DNA from: Oscillospiraceae bacterium
GTDB taxonomy: Bacteria; Bacillota; Clostridia; Oscillospirales; Ruminococcaceae
Direction of reading: 5' to 3'
DNA: 64,000 nucleotides
NCBI GenBank assembly: GCA_017991935.1
Contig: JAGOPP010000003.1
Location: 62,001 to 126,000 of the forward strand
Within the stretch, counting starts at the first letter, position 1. Every line of letters begins with the position of its first letter. This document shows, in pieces, positions 441 through 10,550 of the stretch. The notes beneath the pieces were generated by a model. The model worked only from the letters and a program-made list of their open reading frames with translations, was not told the origin of the DNA and did not search any database. A program made the translations under genes and the position numbers.

Positions 441-542
441 GATTTACGGGGCCGCTCCTGTCGGCCGCGCTCGGGCCCGCCTGCCCCGCCGCCGCGCGGC
501 GGCGAATCCGTTTGCAATCCCCCGCGGCCGGAAGTATATATA

Positions 543-2520
543 ATGAAGCCACGAAATTTTCCGGGGCGGGGACGCAAAGAACACCCCGCGCGGAAGGAGG
601 GCCATCCCGGGAAAAAGAGCAAGACTCTCCAAAGGGAGCGCGTCAACCGCGCCCTCATGAGCATATTCGACTATCCTCTGACCATAGTGGAGGCCCCGAT
701 GGGCTACGGCAAGACTACGGCGGTGCGGGAATTCCTCGCCGCAAGGAGCGTGCGGGTCGTGTGGACGTCCTTCTATTCGGACAGCGACACGAGGGAGGCG
801 TTTTGGGACCGGGTGGCGGCGGCGGCCGGCGGCTTAAACGAGGCGGCGGGCCGGCGAAATCCTCAAAAAGCTGCGTCAGGAAAACGCCTTCGTCTATTAC
901 GATGAGGCAAAGGGCGTCTACCGGATCCACCATGTGCTGCTGGCCTTCCTGCGGGACAGGCAGACGGACCCGGCGGAGGTCTCTTCGCTCTATCGGCGGG
1001 TGGGCGAATGGTTCCTGATGAAAAAGGCGCTCAAACCGGCCTATGCCTACCTCTGCCGCGCCGGGGAGACGGAGCGCGTCCTTTCCCTCTTGGACGAGGA
1101 GGACGCCATCACCAAGGATTCCTCCGAATTTGAGGGCTCCGCGGAGATATTCGCCGCCGCGCCCCGCGGGCTGCTTTTTCGGTACCCGCTCGCCTATCTG
1201 CAATACATCGTCGGGCTGCTCCTTTTTAGCGGCGGCGGGGCCGCCGCGCGGGACGCCGTGTCCCGTCTCGACGAGCTGGAGGCGCATTACGAGGGGCTTG
1301 CGGAGATTCGCCCCGGCCGCCCCGGCCGCCGCGACCGCGTCCTCGCGGAGATCAGCGTGGCGCGTATTTTCGTCGCGTTCAACGACGCGCGTCAGATGCT
1401 TTTTTTCACCCACAAGGCGCTGCGGCTGTTGGACGGCGGCGTCTCCTGCCTCGTCAAGCGGGACGCCGAATTCACCTTCGGCTCGCCCCATTTCCTCTAC
1501 ACCTATTACCGGGAACCGGGGAGCCTAAAGGAGACGGCGGAGTTTATGGCAGCCGAGTTTCCGGCGTTTTCAAGGCTTTCGTCCGGCTGCGGCGCGGGCT
1601 GCGACTATGTGACGCTGGCCGAATACGCGCTGGAAACCGGGGACTGGCAGGCGGCGGAGCTCAACGCCTTTAAAGCCATCTACAAGGCGCAGACCATGGA
1701 GCAGACCGGCATCATCCTCTGCTCTGGGCTGACGCTCGTGCGGCTTTATCTCTATCAGGGCAAGATCGGCGAGGCGCTGGAGCACCTGCGGCGGCTCCGA
1801 ACCGACGCCTCCAAGGAGGAGAACGCCGTTTACAGCACCACGCTGGATCTGATCGAGGGCTACGCCTACGGCTGCATGGCCCGGCCGGACCGCATCCCCG
1901 AGTGGCTGCGGACGGGCGATCACTCCCCGGCCAATTTTATGTATCAGGGCATGGCGTTTCCCTTTCTCGTCCAAGGAAAGGCCCTGCTGCTGGAAAAGGA
2001 CTACATCCGTCTGGAGATGCTGACGGAGACCCTCCCGCAATCCTTCGGCATTTTTCGGAATCAGCTCGGCTTTCTGCACAACGACATCCTCGCCGCCGCC
2101 GCCAGATACCGGCTGTACGGGATGAAAAAAGGCGCGGCGAGACTGGCGGAGGCGATCGACATGGGGCGGGCGGATCACCTGATCCTGCCCTTCGCGGAGT
2201 ACGCGCCCGAAATAACCGATATGCTGCGGCATCTCGCGCAAAACGATTCCCGCGACGGCTACGTCGCGGAGCTGCTCGAAGCCTGCGAGCGCTACATGGA
2301 GAGCCTCAGGCGCGCCCCGGAGAATCCCGTGACGCTCACCGAGCGGGAGCTGTAGGTGCTGGCCCTCGCCGCCGAGGGGCTCGCGCGGGACGAGATCGCC
2401 GCGCGGCTGTATGTGTCCGGCGCCACGATCAAGACGCATCTCGCGAACATCTACCGGAAGCTGGAGGTCGGCGGCAGGGCCGCGGCCGTAAAAAAAGCCG
2501 AAAAACTAAAAATTCTTTGA
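543..2520 (+). pseudogene. Degraded LuxR-family (MalT-like) transcriptional regulator
   Basis: Three pieces of one gene are visible. Piece 1 (543-905) starts at ATG 543 and carries the P-loop EAPMGYGKTTAVREF and the following WTSFYSDSD segment of a MalT/STAND-type ATPase. Near 820-855 most of the nucleotide-binding domain is missing and the frame changes; the true frame resumes at about 850 (EILKKLRQENAFVYYDEAKG, then HHVLLAFLRDRQ). Piece 2 continues to TAG at 2353-2355 as a tetratricopeptide-like helical sensor region. Piece 3 (2356-2520), in the same frame after the TAG, is the C-terminal LuxR helix-turn-helix (DEIAARLYVSGATIKTHLAN). The stop falls inside the HTH, right after LTEREL, where a CAG-to-TAG change would explain it. 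Intact members of this family are about 800-900 residues; here about 640 codons remain. Deletion, frame shift and nonsense together make it non-functional. Confidence 0.88.
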
Positions 2521-2943: not shown

Positions 2944-3891
2944 ATGAGAGAGATAAAAAGAGCACTGTCCGGCGCGCTGGCCTTCTTAATGGTAGTTATG
3001 CTGCTGCCGCAAACGGCGCGGGCGGCGGGAACCGGCTTGGGAAAACTCGAGGCGGAGGATGCGGTACTCGGCGGGGGAGCCACCATCTTCGGGGCCGCTC
3101 AGGGCGTGGGGGCTTCGGGAGGAAAACAGGTCGGGAATCTCAGCACCGCGGGCGGCAGCTACGTCCAGTGGAACAGCCTGCCCGCGGCGTCTCTGCTTGA
3201 AATACGGTACGCGAGCGTAAACAGCGGAACCATCAGCGTCTATCAAAACGGCGCTCATGTCACGGACGCCGCGTTCGCCTCCACCGGCGGGTGGTTTGGA
3301 GAGGGGCGCTTTGCCAGCCTGTTGATTCCTTTGGAAATCGGCGGCGGCGACAACGCCATATTAGACAGCGGCAGCAAGGTCACGATCGGCGGCGACCTGA
3401 CGGTGGACGGCGCGGGCGTCCAAGGCTTGGCTGTGGCGAATTACGACTGCACCGGCGTCGAGTTCCGGGTGCGCGGGGACATGACCGTGACCGGCGAGAG
3501 AGCCACAGGAATCCATTTGCGTTCCGATTTCGAGCTCGGCCCGCCGGAGGAAATCAGCGAAAAAATCGTGGTGGACGGCGCGCTGACGGTGAACGCCGGG
3601 AACACCGGCAGGATCTTTTGGTTATTCCCCTACAAGAGCAGCAACCTTATACTCTTAAACGGCGGGATCATCCGGTCGGCGAGGAGTTTTGTAACCGGGG
3701 ACGCGAACGAACCCTCCGACTACGAATACTGGTCGGAAGACGACTACGTATTGGTGACGAAGCCCTTTGAAACCTACCGGCACTATTATTACGAAGGCGA
3801 GCTTGATCTCCACGTGAGGACCTCGAGGGTAAACCCCGCGATCAGCCCGGTCACCGCGCTCATGCCCGCCACGGCTTCGCTCACGCTGTAA
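2944..3891 (+). CDS. Secreted protein with CBM-like N-terminal module, probably truncated
   Basis: ATG 2944 sits behind ACGGGAGGAAACAG. The 315-residue product has a signal peptide (positive start MREIKRAL, hydrophobic core to about residue 22, ARA-A cleavage near 27). Residues 34-125 resemble a carbohydrate-binding module of the CBM6/35 sandwich type: LEAEDAVLGGGA, GGKQVGNLS, GSYVQW and FASTGGWFGEGRF. From about residue 135 the character changes to short repeated beta segments (KVTIGGDLTV, RVRGDMTV, VVDGALTVNAG) like a beta-helix surface domain. The last residues NPAISPVTALMPATASLTL recall the start of a CBM_X2-type module cut short. There is no catalytic domain and no sortase motif. A polysaccharide-binding surface role is inferred; a truncated remnant of a larger protein is equally possible. 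Confidence 0.6.
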   Translation: MREIKRALSGALAFLMVVMLLPQTARAAGTGLGKLEAEDAVLGGGATIFGAAQGVGASGGKQVGNLSTAGGSYVQWNSLPAASLLEIRYASVNSGTISVYQNGAHVTDAAFASTGGWFGEGRFASLLIPLEIGGGDNAILDSGSKVTIGGDLTVDGAGVQGLAVANYDCTGVEFRVRGDMTVTGERATGIHLRSDFELGPPEEISEKIVVDGALTVNAGNTGRIFWLFPYKSSNLILLNGGIIRSARSFVTGDANEPSDYEYWSEDDYVLVTKPFETYRHYYYEGELDLHVRTSRVNPAISPVTALMPATASLTL

Positions 3892-4194
3892 TTTCCCGCG
3901 CCGATGGAGGGCCTGACGGGTTTTGCGGCGGCCCCGCGGGCGGCGCGCCGCTTGACACATCGTTTTTACAGCCGGGTTTACCGTTTTGGGTAGGCCCGGC
4001 CGTCTTTTGATAAACCGGCGCCTCCCGCGTAATCCGGGGGACGCCGGGCTTATTTGTTATACCTTAAAATCGGATGGACTTCCGCCGCCGCCCGCCGTCC
4101 CTCTCCTTTTCCCTACTTGGAATAACGCCGGAGGCACAAACTTCATAGGATGGGATGGCGCCTTAACGGCGCAATGAAAAGGGGGCGAAAAAGG
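3892..4194. other. Intergenic region before the Cys-rich mini-gene
   Basis: About 300 bases without a convincing gene. A GCCGGG...CCCGGC hairpin (3971-4000) followed by CGTCTTTTG could terminate the secreted-protein transcript. A small GCGCC-TTAAC-GGCGC hairpin lies at 4158-4172, just upstream of the cysteine-rich peptide start. I see no clear promoter. Confidence 0.5.
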
Positions 4195-4296
4195 ATGTGC
4201 TCTTGCAGATGCTTTCAATGGTGCCTCAACCGGTGCTTAAACCGGTGCATAAACCGTTGTTGTAATCGCTGTTTTAATCGCTGCCGCTGCTGCTAA
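4195..4296 (+). CDS. Cysteine-repeat mini-protein, 33 aa
   Basis: ATG 4195 is nine bases behind AAAGGGGG (4178-4185). The frame gives 33 residues, 12 of them cysteine: an opening MCSCRCFQWC followed by a four-residue repeat X-N-R-C (L, L, I, C, F at X) and a closing RCRCC, then TAA. The repeats are conserved as protein but differ at third codon positions (AAC/AAT, CGG/CGT/CGC, TGC/TGT), which is what selection on the peptide would leave and simple DNA slippage would not. An in-frame ATG at 4174 would add MKRGRKR but has a poorer ribosome site. No family is recognised. Metal or Fe-S binding, a spore or envelope structural peptide, or a secreted peptide precursor are all open; no processing enzyme is adjacent. 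Confidence 0.6.
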   Translation: MCSCRCFQWCLNRCLNRCINRCCNRCFNRCRCC

Positions 4297-4409
4297 GCGG
4301 CCCGCAGGTTTGCCGATCGGCCGGCCTGCGTACATTCCCGACGCGCCCCTTTTTGTTTTTTTCTATGGTTTCTTCGCGCGCCCCTCCTTTTCCTCTGGAA
4401 AAGATTGCG

Positions 4410-4477: not shown

Positions 4478-5800
4478 ATGAAACGAGGCATCGTTCTTGC
4501 GGGCGGCGGTTCCAGAGGCGCCTACGAGATCGGTTTTTGGCAGGCGATCCGCGAGCTCGGCATCGACTATCAGATCGTCACCGGCTCCTCGGTCGGCGCG
4601 CTCAACGGCGCCATGATGGCGTCCGGCGATTTTGAGAGCGCGAAACAGATGTGGCTTCGCCTGCGCACCGAGGATGTGATCCTGCGCTCCGGAAAGCGGC
4701 CCGCGACGATCGCCGAGGCAAAGTTTCTCCCGGAATCCATGAAGGCGGTCTTTCTCGATTTTTTGGGCGACGCCATCACCACGCGGATGGACCCCTCCCC
4801 GCTCAAAGAGCTGATGGGCGTCTGGTTCAGCGAGGAGAGGATGCGAAAAAGCGGCGTCGCGTACGGCATGATGACGACGGAATACCCCTCGATGAAGCCC
4901 GCGCCCTTTTTGCTCTCCGACATCCCGGAGGGCATGCTCCCGGAATATATGATGGCCTCCTCCGCGGTCTTTCCCTCCATGCAGCCCAGAGAGATCGGCG
5001 GAAAAAAATATATCGACGGCGGATACAGCGACAATCTGCCGGTCAATCTGGCGCTCGACATGGGCGCGGACGAGATCCTCGCCGTGGATCTCAAGGCCGC
5101 CGGCCTCGAGCGCAACTATGAGACCGACCTGCCGGTGCGCGTGATCCGGCCGCAGTGGTCCCTCGGCAAAAGCATGGAGTGGGACACCCTGCTCTCCGCC
5201 CGGAACCTGATCCTCGGCTACAACGACACCATGAAGAGCTTCGGATACCTCGAGGGCGACCGTTACAGTTTCATCCCCGGGACGGCCGGCCCGCTGACGC
5301 AGGCGTGCCGGGAGACGTTTCCGGCGCTGCTGCTTGGGACCGGGATCTATGCCGAAACCGCGGCGAGGGATTTTTTCCACACCAAGCTGGTGCGGAGCGC
5401 CGCGGAAAGCCGGCGCCTGCGCCCGGGAAGAATGCCCATCCTGCTCGGCCTTGTCTCCGCGGAGATCGCCGGGGAATGCTTCGAGGTCGACCCTACCCCC
5501 GTTTACAGCGGCGACGGGTTCACCTCGGAGATCCTGACCGCGTTCCTGCCCTATTGGAAACAGGGCGCGGAACGCGTGGAGCTCGCGCTCGGCGCCGAGC
5601 GGGACCTCCGCCACCGCTCCGCCCTGCTCCGAAAGCTCGAGCGCCGGGACATCCTCTCTTTTATTTACTCGCTGATCGCGCCCGCCATGACCGGGGCGAA
5701 GCTCCCGCACGAGTACCGGCTGCTGGCCGGGTTTGTGCCGCAGGAGCTTCTGGGGGCCCTGTGGCTTTACAGCGTCACGAATTTGACATCCGGGAAGTGA
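4478..5800 (+). CDS. Patatin-like phospholipase
   Basis: ATG 4478 follows AGGGAGGAGC. The 440-residue protein has the complete patatin signature: oxyanion glycine loop GGGSRG at residues 9-14, nucleophile elbow GSSVG at 36-40 (Ser38) and the DGG motif at 180-182 (Asp180), which together form the Ser-Asp catalytic dyad of bacterial patatin-type acyl hydrolases. Residues 1-200 are the lipase domain; the remaining 240 residues are helical and not recognised, longer than in minimal patatins. There is no signal peptide, so it acts in the cytoplasm or at the inner membrane face. The next gene, a TAXI lipoprotein, begins five bases after the stop, so they are co-transcribed. The lipid substrate cannot be inferred. 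Confidence 0.88.
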   Translation: MKRGIVLAGGGSRGAYEIGFWQAIRELGIDYQIVTGSSVGALNGAMMASGDFESAKQMWLRLRTEDVILRSGKRPATIAEAKFLPESMKAVFLDFLGDAITTRMDPSPLKELMGVWFSEERMRKSGVAYGMMTTEYPSMKPAPFLLSDIPEGMLPEYMMASSAVFPSMQPREIGGKKYIDGGYSDNLPVNLALDMGADEILAVDLKAAGLERNYETDLPVRVIRPQWSLGKSMEWDTLLSARNLILGYNDTMKSFGYLEGDRYSFIPGTAGPLTQACRETFPALLLGTGIYAETAARDFFHTKLVRSAAESRRLRPGRMPILLGLVSAEIAGECFEVDPTPVYSGDGFTSEILTAFLPYWKQGAERVELALGAERDLRHRSALLRKLERRDILSFIYSLIAPAMTGAKLPHEYRLLAGFVPQELLGALWLYSVTNLTSGK

Positions 5801-6998: not shown

Positions 6999-7397
6999 TC
7001 AGACCTTTTTGATAAAAGCCGTACCGCAGCTCGGGCAGCGGATCTCAATTCTGCCCCTGCCGCGGGGGACGCGGATCTTCTGCCGGCAGTTCGGGCAGTG
7101 GAAATGGCGGTACGCCTTTCGCTCCGCCGCGCCGCTTTGCAGGAGGCCCCACCGATTCTTCGCCTTCCACCAGAGGCCCACGAACTTCGCGTTCTCGGCC
7201 CGGCGCTTGCCCACGCTGCGCGAAAAGGTGCGGAAAAGGCTGTAAATGTAGCAGGCGAGCGACACCCCGTAGACCGGGATCCAGCCCGTAAACCGATAGA
7301 GGATCCCCAGCAGGACGCCGGCGGCAAGGAAAGCGAGCGCGAGCGCGTCGGTGCCGTTTCTCCCGTACATAAAATCCCGCAGTTTTTGCATCATCAC
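6999..7397 (-). CDS. Small membrane protein with C-terminal zinc ribbon
   Basis: The frame gives 132 residues. GTG 7397 and two ATGs (7394, 7391) are possible starts behind AAAGGAG; GTG has the best spacing. Residues 18-55 contain one or two hydrophobic segments (ALALAFLAAGVLLGILY, then PVYGVSLACYIYSLF). The C-terminal 40 residues carry two CPxC knuckles (FHCPNCRQKIRVP and IRCPSCGTAF), a rubredoxin-like zinc ribbon. The ribbon probably faces the cytoplasm. Such small proteins are common in Clostridia and have no assigned role. It stands alone, convergent with the TAXI gene. Confidence 0.75.
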   Translation of the reverse strand: MMMQKLRDFMYGRNGTDALALAFLAAGVLLGILYRFTGWIPVYGVSLACYIYSLFRTFSRSVGKRRAENAKFVGLWWKAKNRWGLLQSGAAERKAYRHFHCPNCRQKIRVPRGRGRIEIRCPSCGTAFIKKV

Positions 7398-8523: not shown

Positions 8524-9417
8524 ATGATCCTGAAAATTTATGACGAAGACAATCAAAAAGAAAAGCTGATGTTCTTTGAGGACGAGTCCGATTCCATGAA
8601 GCTCGGCTACGAGATCGGCGGCATCCTCTATGAGCGGGAGGCCGAATGCGGCCAAAAGGTCATGATCTTTGAGCACAAGGACCTCGGAAAGACGCTCGTC
8701 ATCGACGACATCGTGCAGTCCTCGGTCAACACGGAATTCCTCTACAACGAGATCATGGCGCATCTCCCGCTCGACTGCCAAAAAGACCCGAAGCGCGTGC
8801 TGATCATCGGCGGCGGGACCGGCCTCACGATGAAGCAGGCGCTGAAATACCCCGTGGACGAGGCCGTGCTCTGCGACATCTCCTCCGAGATCCTTGAGAT
8901 CGCGGAAGAATACGAGCCCGAGGCGGTGGAGGCGCTGCATGACCCGCGCGCGAAGGTCGTGATCGCCGACGGCTTCGAGTACGTCAAGGGGCAAAAGGAT
9001 CTCGACGGCATCTTGGTGGACAGCTGCGACCCGGTCGGGCCCGCGAAGGTCCTCTACTCGGACGAATTTTATCAAAACTGCATCGCCGCGCTCTCCGAGA
9101 CGGGCGTCCTCTGCGTGCAGACCGGGGCCCCCCTGTTTTCGGCGGGGCGGCGGGAATACCGCGAGCTGATGCGCTATCTGCGGGGACGGGACGACGTCGC
9201 ATACAAACCGGTCATCTTCACCTGCCCGATGATCGTCGGCGGGTTTTATATGTTCGTGCTCATCACCAAAAACAAGGGCACCGATTGGAACGCGCATTTT
9301 CACATCCGGCGGGACGACGTGGAATATTACGACCCGGAACTGCGGGCGCAATACTTTGACATACCCAACTTTATACGAAAGAGGCTGGAAACGGATCCGG
9401 AGAGGGACGCGGATTGA
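8524..9417 (+). CDS. speE: Polyamine aminopropyltransferase (spermidine synthase family)
   Basis: ATG 8524 lies nine bases behind AAAGGA. The 297-residue protein has the two-part spermidine synthase fold: an N-terminal beta domain (LYEREAECGQKVMIFEH...DDIVQSS, then EFLYNEIMAHLPL) and a Rossmann domain. It would transfer the aminopropyl group from decarboxylated S-adenosylmethionine to putrescine or a similar diamine. The cofactor glycine loop reads GGGTG (96-100) where most family members have GGGDG, and the active-site loop reads DSCDPVGPA (166-174) where DS(T/S)DPxGPA is usual; the catalytic Asp166 is kept. These changes may reflect a different substrate. The following nspC overlaps by three bases. 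No S-adenosylmethionine decarboxylase is in view. Confidence 0.9.
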   Translation: MILKIYDEDNQKEKLMFFEDESDSMKLGYEIGGILYEREAECGQKVMIFEHKDLGKTLVIDDIVQSSVNTEFLYNEIMAHLPLDCQKDPKRVLIIGGGTGLTMKQALKYPVDEAVLCDISSEILEIAEEYEPEAVEALHDPRAKVVIADGFEYVKGQKDLDGILVDSCDPVGPAKVLYSDEFYQNCIAALSETGVLCVQTGAPLFSAGRREYRELMRYLRGRDDVAYKPVIFTCPMIVGGFYMFVLITKNKGTDWNAHFHIRRDDVEYYDPELRAQYFDIPNFIRKRLETDPERDAD

Positions 9418-10550
9418 AAAATTATTCCGAACTGTTTAAAAATCTCCCCACGCCCTGCTTTGTGCTCGACGAGGAGATGCTCGTGCGAAATCTTGAGCTT
9501 TGCAGGAGGATTGAAGAAGAAAGCGGCTGCAAGATCCTGCTCGCGCAAAAGGCCTTTTCGATGTACCGGGTCTACGGCCTGATGGCGCGGTATCTCTCCG
9601 GGACGGCGGCGAGCTCCCTGTTTGAGGCAAAGCTCGCGGCGGAGCATTTTCCGGGGGAGGTCCACATCTACGCGCCGGCCTACCGCGAGGAAGAATTCGG
9701 CGAGATCCTCGGCTGCTGCAGCCACATCGTCTTTAATTCCTACGCGCAGCTCGAAAAATTCTTGCCCGAGATTCGGGCGAGCAAAAAGAAGATCGAATAC
9801 GGGCTCCGCATCAACCCACAGGTTTCGACCTGCCCAAACCCGATGTACGACCCCTGCGCGCCGGGCTCCCGCTTCGGCATCCCGGCGGAGCGGTTCGACA
9901 AAACGGTCCGGGCGGACGGCCTCCACTTCCACACGCTCTGCGAGCAGGGCGTCGGCGATCTCAAAAAGACGCTCGCAAAGGTGGAGGAGGATTTCGGGGA
10001 CTACCTGCGCGGGATGAAATGGGTCAATTTCGGCGGCGGGCATTTCCTCACCGCCGAGGACTACGACACGCGGGAGCTGATCCGGGTTATCCGGGACTTC
10101 TCCGAAAAATACGGCGTGCAGGTCTATCTTGAGCCCGGCGAGGCGGTCGCCTACAACGCGGGCTTTCTCATCTCGCGGGTCATGGACGTCGTGCAAAACG
10201 GCATGGACATCGCGATACTTGATGCCTCCGCCGCCTGCCATATGCCACAGGTCTTGGAGGAACATTATCTGCCCGAGGTCCTCGGGGCGGGGGCTCCGGG
10301 CGAGTATCCTTATGCCTGCCGCCTCGCGGGAAATACCTGCCTCGGCGGCGACGTGATCGGCGACTATTCGTTCCCGCGGGAACTAAGGCCCGGCGACCTG
10401 CTGATCTTTGCCGACATGGCGCACTACACGATGGTCAAAACCAACTTTTTTAACGGCGTGAATCTCCCCTCGATCGCGAAGCTCGATAGGGACGGGACAA
10501 CCGAGGTGCTCAACACGTTCGGGTACGAGGATTTTAAATCAAAACTCTAA
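9414..10550 (+). CDS. nspC: Carboxynorspermidine / carboxyspermidine decarboxylase
   Basis: The start is TTG 9414, overlapping the speE stop (TTGA), with GGAGAGG upstream. The 378-residue protein is a fold-III PLP decarboxylase: PTPCFVLDE near the N-terminus, PLP lysine in LLAQKAFS (Lys46), LHFHTLCE, the phosphate loop NFGGGH, EPGEAV, and the substrate-side segment ILDASAACHMP. It removes carbon dioxide from carboxyspermidine or carboxynorspermidine. In this alternative polyamine route the precursor is made by a carboxyspermidine dehydrogenase, which is not in the window. Having speE and nspC in one operon is noteworthy because each can end a different branch to triamines. Confidence 0.93.
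   Translation: MKNYSELFKNLPTPCFVLDEEMLVRNLELCRRIEEESGCKILLAQKAFSMYRVYGLMARYLSGTAASSLFEAKLAAEHFPGEVHIYAPAYREEEFGEILGCCSHIVFNSYAQLEKFLPEIRASKKKIEYGLRINPQVSTCPNPMYDPCAPGSRFGIPAERFDKTVRADGLHFHTLCEQGVGDLKKTLAKVEEDFGDYLRGMKWVNFGGGHFLTAEDYDTRELIRVIRDFSEKYGVQVYLEPGEAVAYNAGFLISRVMDVVQNGMDIAILDASAACHMPQVLEEHYLPEVLGAGAPGEYPYACRLAGNTCLGGDVIGDYSFPRELRPGDLLIFADMAHYTMVKTNFFNGVNLPSIAKLDRDGTTEVLNTFGYEDFKSKL

Follow-up and report, generated by a model that had tools for sequence, protein, structure and literature searches.

Spore-shell components are poorly known beyond Bacillus, whose spore coat includes the cysteine-rich proteins CotX, CotY and CotZ, and Clostridioides difficile. In the latter, the cysteine-rich exosporium proteins CdeC (44.7 kDa) and CdeM (19.1 kDa) have a suggested cross-linking role (PMC9542656), and sigma-K promoters combine a -35 element AC with a -10 element resembling that of sigma-E promoters (PMC3789822). 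Cysteines spaced along a helix also have a copper-binding precedent: in Csp3, Cu(I) is held by the two thiolates of a CXXXC pair on a single helix, with an Asn side chain as an additional ligand of one Cu (PMC5171941). Here we examine a short open reading frame (ORF) within a 64-kb window, the whole stretch of DNA that was analysed, from an Oscillospiraceae bacterium. Its predicted product resembles CdeC/CdeM and CotX/Y/Z in its high cysteine content, its sporulating host, its apparent mother-cell control and the suggested disulfide cross-linking. By contrast, CdeC and CdeM are far larger, and the ORF peptide is without a family match.

The ORF encodes MCSCRCFQWCLNRCLNRCINRCCNRCFNRCRCC, followed by TAA. 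Translation bears out what the original prediction had counted, namely 33 codons, 12 cysteines and five XNRC units behind an ATG; the Shine-Dalgarno-like AAAGGGGG lies upstream (Table 1). The cysteines occupy residues 2, 4, 6, 10, 14, 18, 22, 23, 26, 30, 32 and 33 of the 33-residue peptide (36% Cys), in CXC, CC and CXXXC spacings. The five units stand as described, and the regularity extends further than had been noted: between C2 and C30, cysteine recurs at intervals of four residues, so that eight cysteine-first tetrads form an i+4 ladder, which shuffling of the same residues reproduces at a frequency of 0.00012 (0.012%). The first tetrad position is Cys and the second mostly hydrophobic, the third and fourth are mostly Asn and Arg, and hydrophobicity is periodic at 90 degrees per residue (p about 0.001). 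The peptide is basic, with seven arginines and zero acidic residues. At the DNA level, TRF splits the 12-bp repeat into two arrays (4220-4256 and 4258-4283). Further in-frame ATGs lie at 4150 and 4174 (48- and 40-residue versions), and the best Shine-Dalgarno sequence among the in-frame starts is that of the ATG at 4195. With a Cys fraction of 0.36, the ORF ranks at the top of 4,087 short ORFs in 462 kb (60% G+C) of its own genome (1.78 Mb, 34 contigs), the runner-up reaching 0.25. Were the ORF translated, its product would stand out among bacterial proteins for its exceptional Cys density, as an orphan that falls under the length cut-off of gene finders.

The repeat carries a coding-like pattern of change. 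The synonymous third-position variation reported earlier is confirmed, with TGC/TGT for Cys, AAC/AAT for Asn and CGG/CGT/CGC for Arg. Between neighbours, the five clean repeat units show 2, 2, 6 and 1 differences per 12 positions; every change outside the variable X codon falls on a third position and is silent, a pattern that the codon test did not find in the other frames of either strand. When repeat decay is modelled as neutral, three invariant codon columns with silent variation have a probability of 7e-5 in this frame and 1.6e-3 in any of six, and column shuffling gives 8e-4 and 7e-3, respectively; these p values need some discount because the ORF was chosen from 64 kb for its striking look. 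The codon test supports the earlier claim of selection on the peptide, and we consider translation of the ORF, with selection acting on it, quite probable.

The foremost competing explanation is that there is no gene here, and that a short, degenerate, intergenic 12-bp tandem repeat happens to leave one frame open. The lineage specificity of the repeat ORF, the ease with which off-frame readings of other 12-bp repeats yield (XNRC)n frames and the predicted occlusion of the Shine-Dalgarno sequence (see below) all agree with it. Against it stand the codon-position pattern (p 0.002-0.007 even across six frames), the continuation of the Cys ladder into the DNA-diverged units CSCR and CFQW, and the correct order and spacing of a promoter-like site, Shine-Dalgarno sequence and T-run. 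On balance, we judge a chance frame unlikely, if the most serious of the alternatives.

Unannotated homologues had been anticipated, an expectation that failed: none was present in 14 congeners or in 397 family, 394 order and 391 class genomes (these samples overlap), and protein searches returned none among roughly 1,000 related genomes, including 150 relatives. The patatin gene downstream of the ORF is kept in 12 congeners at 42-45% identity, and at the syntenic patatin locus of these 12 a Cys-rich ORF resembling 4195-4296 is absent before the gene. Because a homologue was found nowhere searched, the ORF has no between-species conservation to its credit. The claim that no described family fits held up, with zero Pfam and NCBIfam matches and nothing significant in a PDB sequence search, where the hits, including small TIM proteins with twin CX3C motifs, were at chance level. 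At the DNA level, the own genome and its genus yielded short chance matches only, plasmid and phage sets gave zero matches (a low-complexity filter may mask the query there), and Rfam found only a tRNA in the window.

Candidate relatives from further afield were rejected upon reading. The best outside match (E 2.6e-6) reads a TPTE repeat in antisense; the other outside protein matches that were read run off-frame or antisense to longer frames. A three-unit motif scan of public genome contigs, which also permits Ser in place of Arg, gave more than 100 matches, mostly fragments of other open frames or simple repeats; a promising one in Lachnospiraceae appears, by eye, to run off-frame through a P-type ATPase. 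Four matches in viral contigs all run off-frame through repeat proteins or through a long frame. Because the matches read are off-frame readings of other repeats, the XNRC motif alone is no family marker.

The ORF is predicted to form its own transcription unit between the terminator-like hairpin of the upstream unit and a downstream T-run, although a simple terminator scan made no call at 4303-4362. The predicted full transcript folds more stably than shuffled sequences (z -3.1). In it, the Shine-Dalgarno region (4177-4187) is complementary to 4342-4353, just before the T-run, and almost wholly paired. This pairing would hinder translation, and because it involves the segment preceding the T-run, translation and termination could compete. 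The next start codon lies 181 nt beyond the ORF stop codon, where the patatin-type gene begins; a TAXI solute-binding protein is also encoded downstream. None of the annotated genes next to the ORF relates to metals, cysteine or sporulation.

Table 1. Positions of the features discussed. Coordinates refer to the window, except in the rows for comparator proteins, which refer to their own contigs.
Feature	Position	Strand	Details or basis
Terminator-like hairpin ending the upstream unit (gene 2944-3891)	3971-4000	+	12-bp stem, 8 G-C pairs, then CGTCTTTT
Putative sigma-K-type promoter	4125-4151	+	-35 AC 4125-4126, N17, -10 CATAGGAT 4144-4151
Shine-Dalgarno-like AAAGGGGG	4178-4185	+	9 nt before ATG
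33-codon ORF and stop	4195-4296	+	Translation, codon constraint, Cys fraction outlier
Eight Cys-first tetrads (CSCR CFQW CLNR CLNR CINR CCNR CFNR CRCC)	4198-4293	+	i+4 ladder
XNRC units (LNRC, LNRC, INRC, CNRC, FNRC)	4225-4284	+	Translation, codon test
Stem-loop (4303-4330) and T-run (4350-4362), probable 3' end of small transcript	4303-4362	+	Inverted repeat I2, folds
Patatin-like phospholipase gene	4478-5800		Downstream of ORF; annotation
L251, small Cys-tetrad protein	637-807	+	MNCFGNGYWWIIILILIILF... with CGNN repeats
L238, small Cys-tetrad protein	1408-1653	+	
L252, small Cys-tetrad protein		reverse	
L054, small Cys-tetrad protein		reverse	

Upstream of the ORF, a sigma-70 promoter scan of its strand found nothing. 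A candidate sigma-K-type site, AC-N17-CATAGGAT, sits 43 nt before the ATG; because it was sought after the sigma-70 scan had failed, it does not constitute a pre-planned test. Measured against the AC ... CATANNNTA consensus, the site lacks the A that should follow the final T of the -10 element. The form AC-N16/17-CATANNNT occurs in about 0.004 of shuffles of the 135 nt upstream of the ORF; the single-strand background across 462 kb of the own genome is 0.003 per 135 nt. AC-N17-CATAGGAT is the sole such site outside long open frames in the window. The genome encodes Spo0A, SigE (350 bits, above its cut-off), SigK (299.5 bits for PRK05803 against a cut-off of 252; slightly below the cut-off of TIGR02846 on a partial sequence) and SpoIVA, and spoIVA carries CATATAGT at -49. 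Taken as a whole, the ORF looks like a real, lineage-specific gene of a spore-forming bacterium, and from these sequence features we lean slightly towards mother-cell production during sporulation. Intergenic sigma-K-type sites are otherwise few in the 462 kb; one of them (L206, 9682, minus strand) precedes MAEQKANSTMSAASSACFKEAVCIDAGRVYDSCSD..., where by eye a conserved clostridial spore protein seems to begin before the reading frame is apparently lost.

Four unannotated small Cys-tetrad proteins in related genomes (L251, L252, L238 and L054) provide a comparison. They came from a six-Cys ladder search of 397 family genomes, whose matches were mostly simple repeats or off-frame readings and whose reversed-pattern control often scored equally high, together with the motif scan, and their selection as plausible ORFs preceded any look at the DNA upstream. 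L251, L252 and L238 belong to the same taxonomic family as the window and L054 is recorded as Oscillospiraceae, and Pfam and NCBIfam hold no family for any of them. Like the ORF at 4195-4296, they are short and have putative sigma-K-type sites upstream: AC-N15/17-CATANNNT lies within 160 nt in 4/4 and within 100 nt in three, each of which carries CATANNNTGTA, while the L054 site is 122 nt from its ATG. The corresponding shuffle frequencies are 0.04, 0.02, 0.003 and 0.008 for L251, L252, L238 and L054, respectively; a joint figure is not to be taken literally because N15 was accepted as a spacing only once L252 had been seen. The trend towards putative sigma-K-type sites before the comparators is clear. 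The proteins also share with the ORF peptide cysteines at i+4 and often an Asn two residues past the Cys (C-G-N-N/S versus C-x-N-R). They cannot be aligned with it, however. They are Gly/Asn-rich and lack an Arg repeat, and in L251, L252 and L054 a transmembrane-like WWI(I/L)ILILI segment is followed by C-G-N-N/S-type repeats. Because of this composition and the transmembrane-like segment in three of the four, we regard them as analogues rather than as demonstrated relatives of the ORF peptide. A further ORF, of 148 residues with 39 Cys, some of them in runs such as CCCCC, starts at 1402 on the reverse strand of contig L234 (reverse-strand coordinate); it has zero Pfam/NCBIfam matches and an AC...CATACAAT site 85 nt upstream.

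The original prediction had left metal or cluster binding and a disulfide-linked structure side by side. The putative sigma-K-type promoter, the sporulation sigma factors and the comparators favour the structural branch, and specifically a place at the spore surface. Our leading reading, held tentatively and at somewhat less than an even chance, is that the ORF is an orphan mother-cell micro-gene whose product is a thiol cross-linked component of the coat or exosporium. The putative sigma-K-type promoter would drive the ORF in the mother cell late in sporulation, and translation would yield a small basic peptide with an i, i+4 Cys ladder. This peptide would then enter the outer spore layers, where its 12 cysteines could form disulfides within the peptide and with adjacent Cys-rich coat or exosporium proteins. 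A broader and more speculative extension, which we think rather unlikely, is that this group of spore-forming Clostridia has a fast-evolving, unannotated class of micro-proteins under sigma-K control. A four-residue Cys ladder would be their common plan (C-x-N-R in the ORF peptide and C-G-N-N/S in others, with a membrane anchor in some), and they would form a disulfide or thiolate network in the spore shell, the ORF being a recent, soluble, Arg-rich member. The putative promoter link offers a cheap filter, a short Cys-ladder ORF plus AC-N15/17-CATANNNT, for hidden spore-shell components.

Among explanations that accept a translated peptide, the next in line is a thiolate metal-binder, metallothionein-like or a miniature Csp, in which a helical hairpin or small bundle would hold Cu(I) or Zn(II) between cysteines at i and i+4. 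The cysteine content and the CXC, CC and CXXXC spacings suit such a role, as does an AlphaFold2 model with helices at 4-16 and 20-32 (mean pLDDT 74), which carries low weight since it was built on a single sequence. The Csp3 precedent of helical CXXXC thiolates holding Cu(I) points the same way, and CXXXC on helices is a feature that Csp1 and Csp3 share with the ORF peptide. Unlike it, both are four-helix bundles that form tetramers with 13-19 Cys per monomer, and Csp membership was rejected: there is no family match, and 33 residues are too few for a four-helix monomer. Against metal binding more generally, metal transporters and regulators are absent among the annotated neighbours, Pfam and NCBIfam give zero sequence matches to metallothionein or Csp families, and seven Arg with no acidic residue would be unusual for a metallothionein. 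We consider a thiolate metal-binder unlikely. In reduced form, such a helical hairpin could bind Cu(I) through its CXXXC pairs; an oxidised one, on the spore surface, could cross-link.

Less probable still is a secreted cationic antimicrobial braced by disulfides into a helical hairpin, akin to the plant alpha-hairpinins, antimicrobial peptides with four Cys that form a short helix-loop-helix (PMC11591084). The net positive charge, the periodic hydrophobicity and the CX3C-Xn-CX3C spacing within the two modelled helices recall these peptides, yet the ORF peptide contains twelve Cys, eight of which share one register, and this ladder departs from the hairpinin pattern. Moreover, a leader, exporter or modification gene was not found adjacent, and the cysteines would stay reduced in an anaerobic cytosol.

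Least probable is a poly-cysteine leader, in which ribosome stalling under cysteine shortage would control the downstream gene: its mycobacterial precedent, Cys-rich leader ORFs that act as cysteine attenuators (Canestrari et al. 2020, as cited in PMC9094748), shares with the ORF its very short length, Cys richness and following RNA structure (here a stem-loop and T-run 3' of the ORF, with the Shine-Dalgarno sequence able to pair with the stretch before the T-run), but those ORFs are leaderless and precede cysteine-responsive operons, whereas the downstream genes here, the first of them 181 nt beyond the stop codon, do not belong to cysteine metabolism and the ORF also conserves Asn and Arg, for which attenuation has no need.

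The peptide is also distinct from SCIFF, a widely conserved peptide with six Cys in forty-five residues and a radical-SAM maturase. Both are short, Cys-rich clostridial peptides, and a SCIFF-like copy, MEHIKTINKANLKESCAKGGCGECQASCQSACKTSCTVANQECENQARTQSK, occurs in this genome (L197 1023-1181, reverse-strand coordinates), and its recovery was the positive control of the Cys scan. The spacing and sequence of SCIFF are different, NCBIfam gave zero match for the ORF peptide, the neighbours are not radical-SAM genes and the SCIFF-like ORF is a separate one; membership was rejected.

Elsewhere in the window, a broken regulator, LuxR/MalT-like by eye, spans 541-2520 (+). An N-terminal ATPase-like fragment is followed by a frame change around 860-930 and then by an ORF at 934-2355, which ends at a TAG inside the helix-turn-helix (LTEREL*VLALAAEGL) and reopens to 2520. 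A 132-residue protein at 6999-7397 (-) has a dual CXXC end and a weak, sub-threshold CxxC_Se_CxxC match. At 8524-10550 (+), a spermidine synthase-like gene is followed by one for carboxynorspermidine decarboxylase (nspC), forming a polyamine pair.
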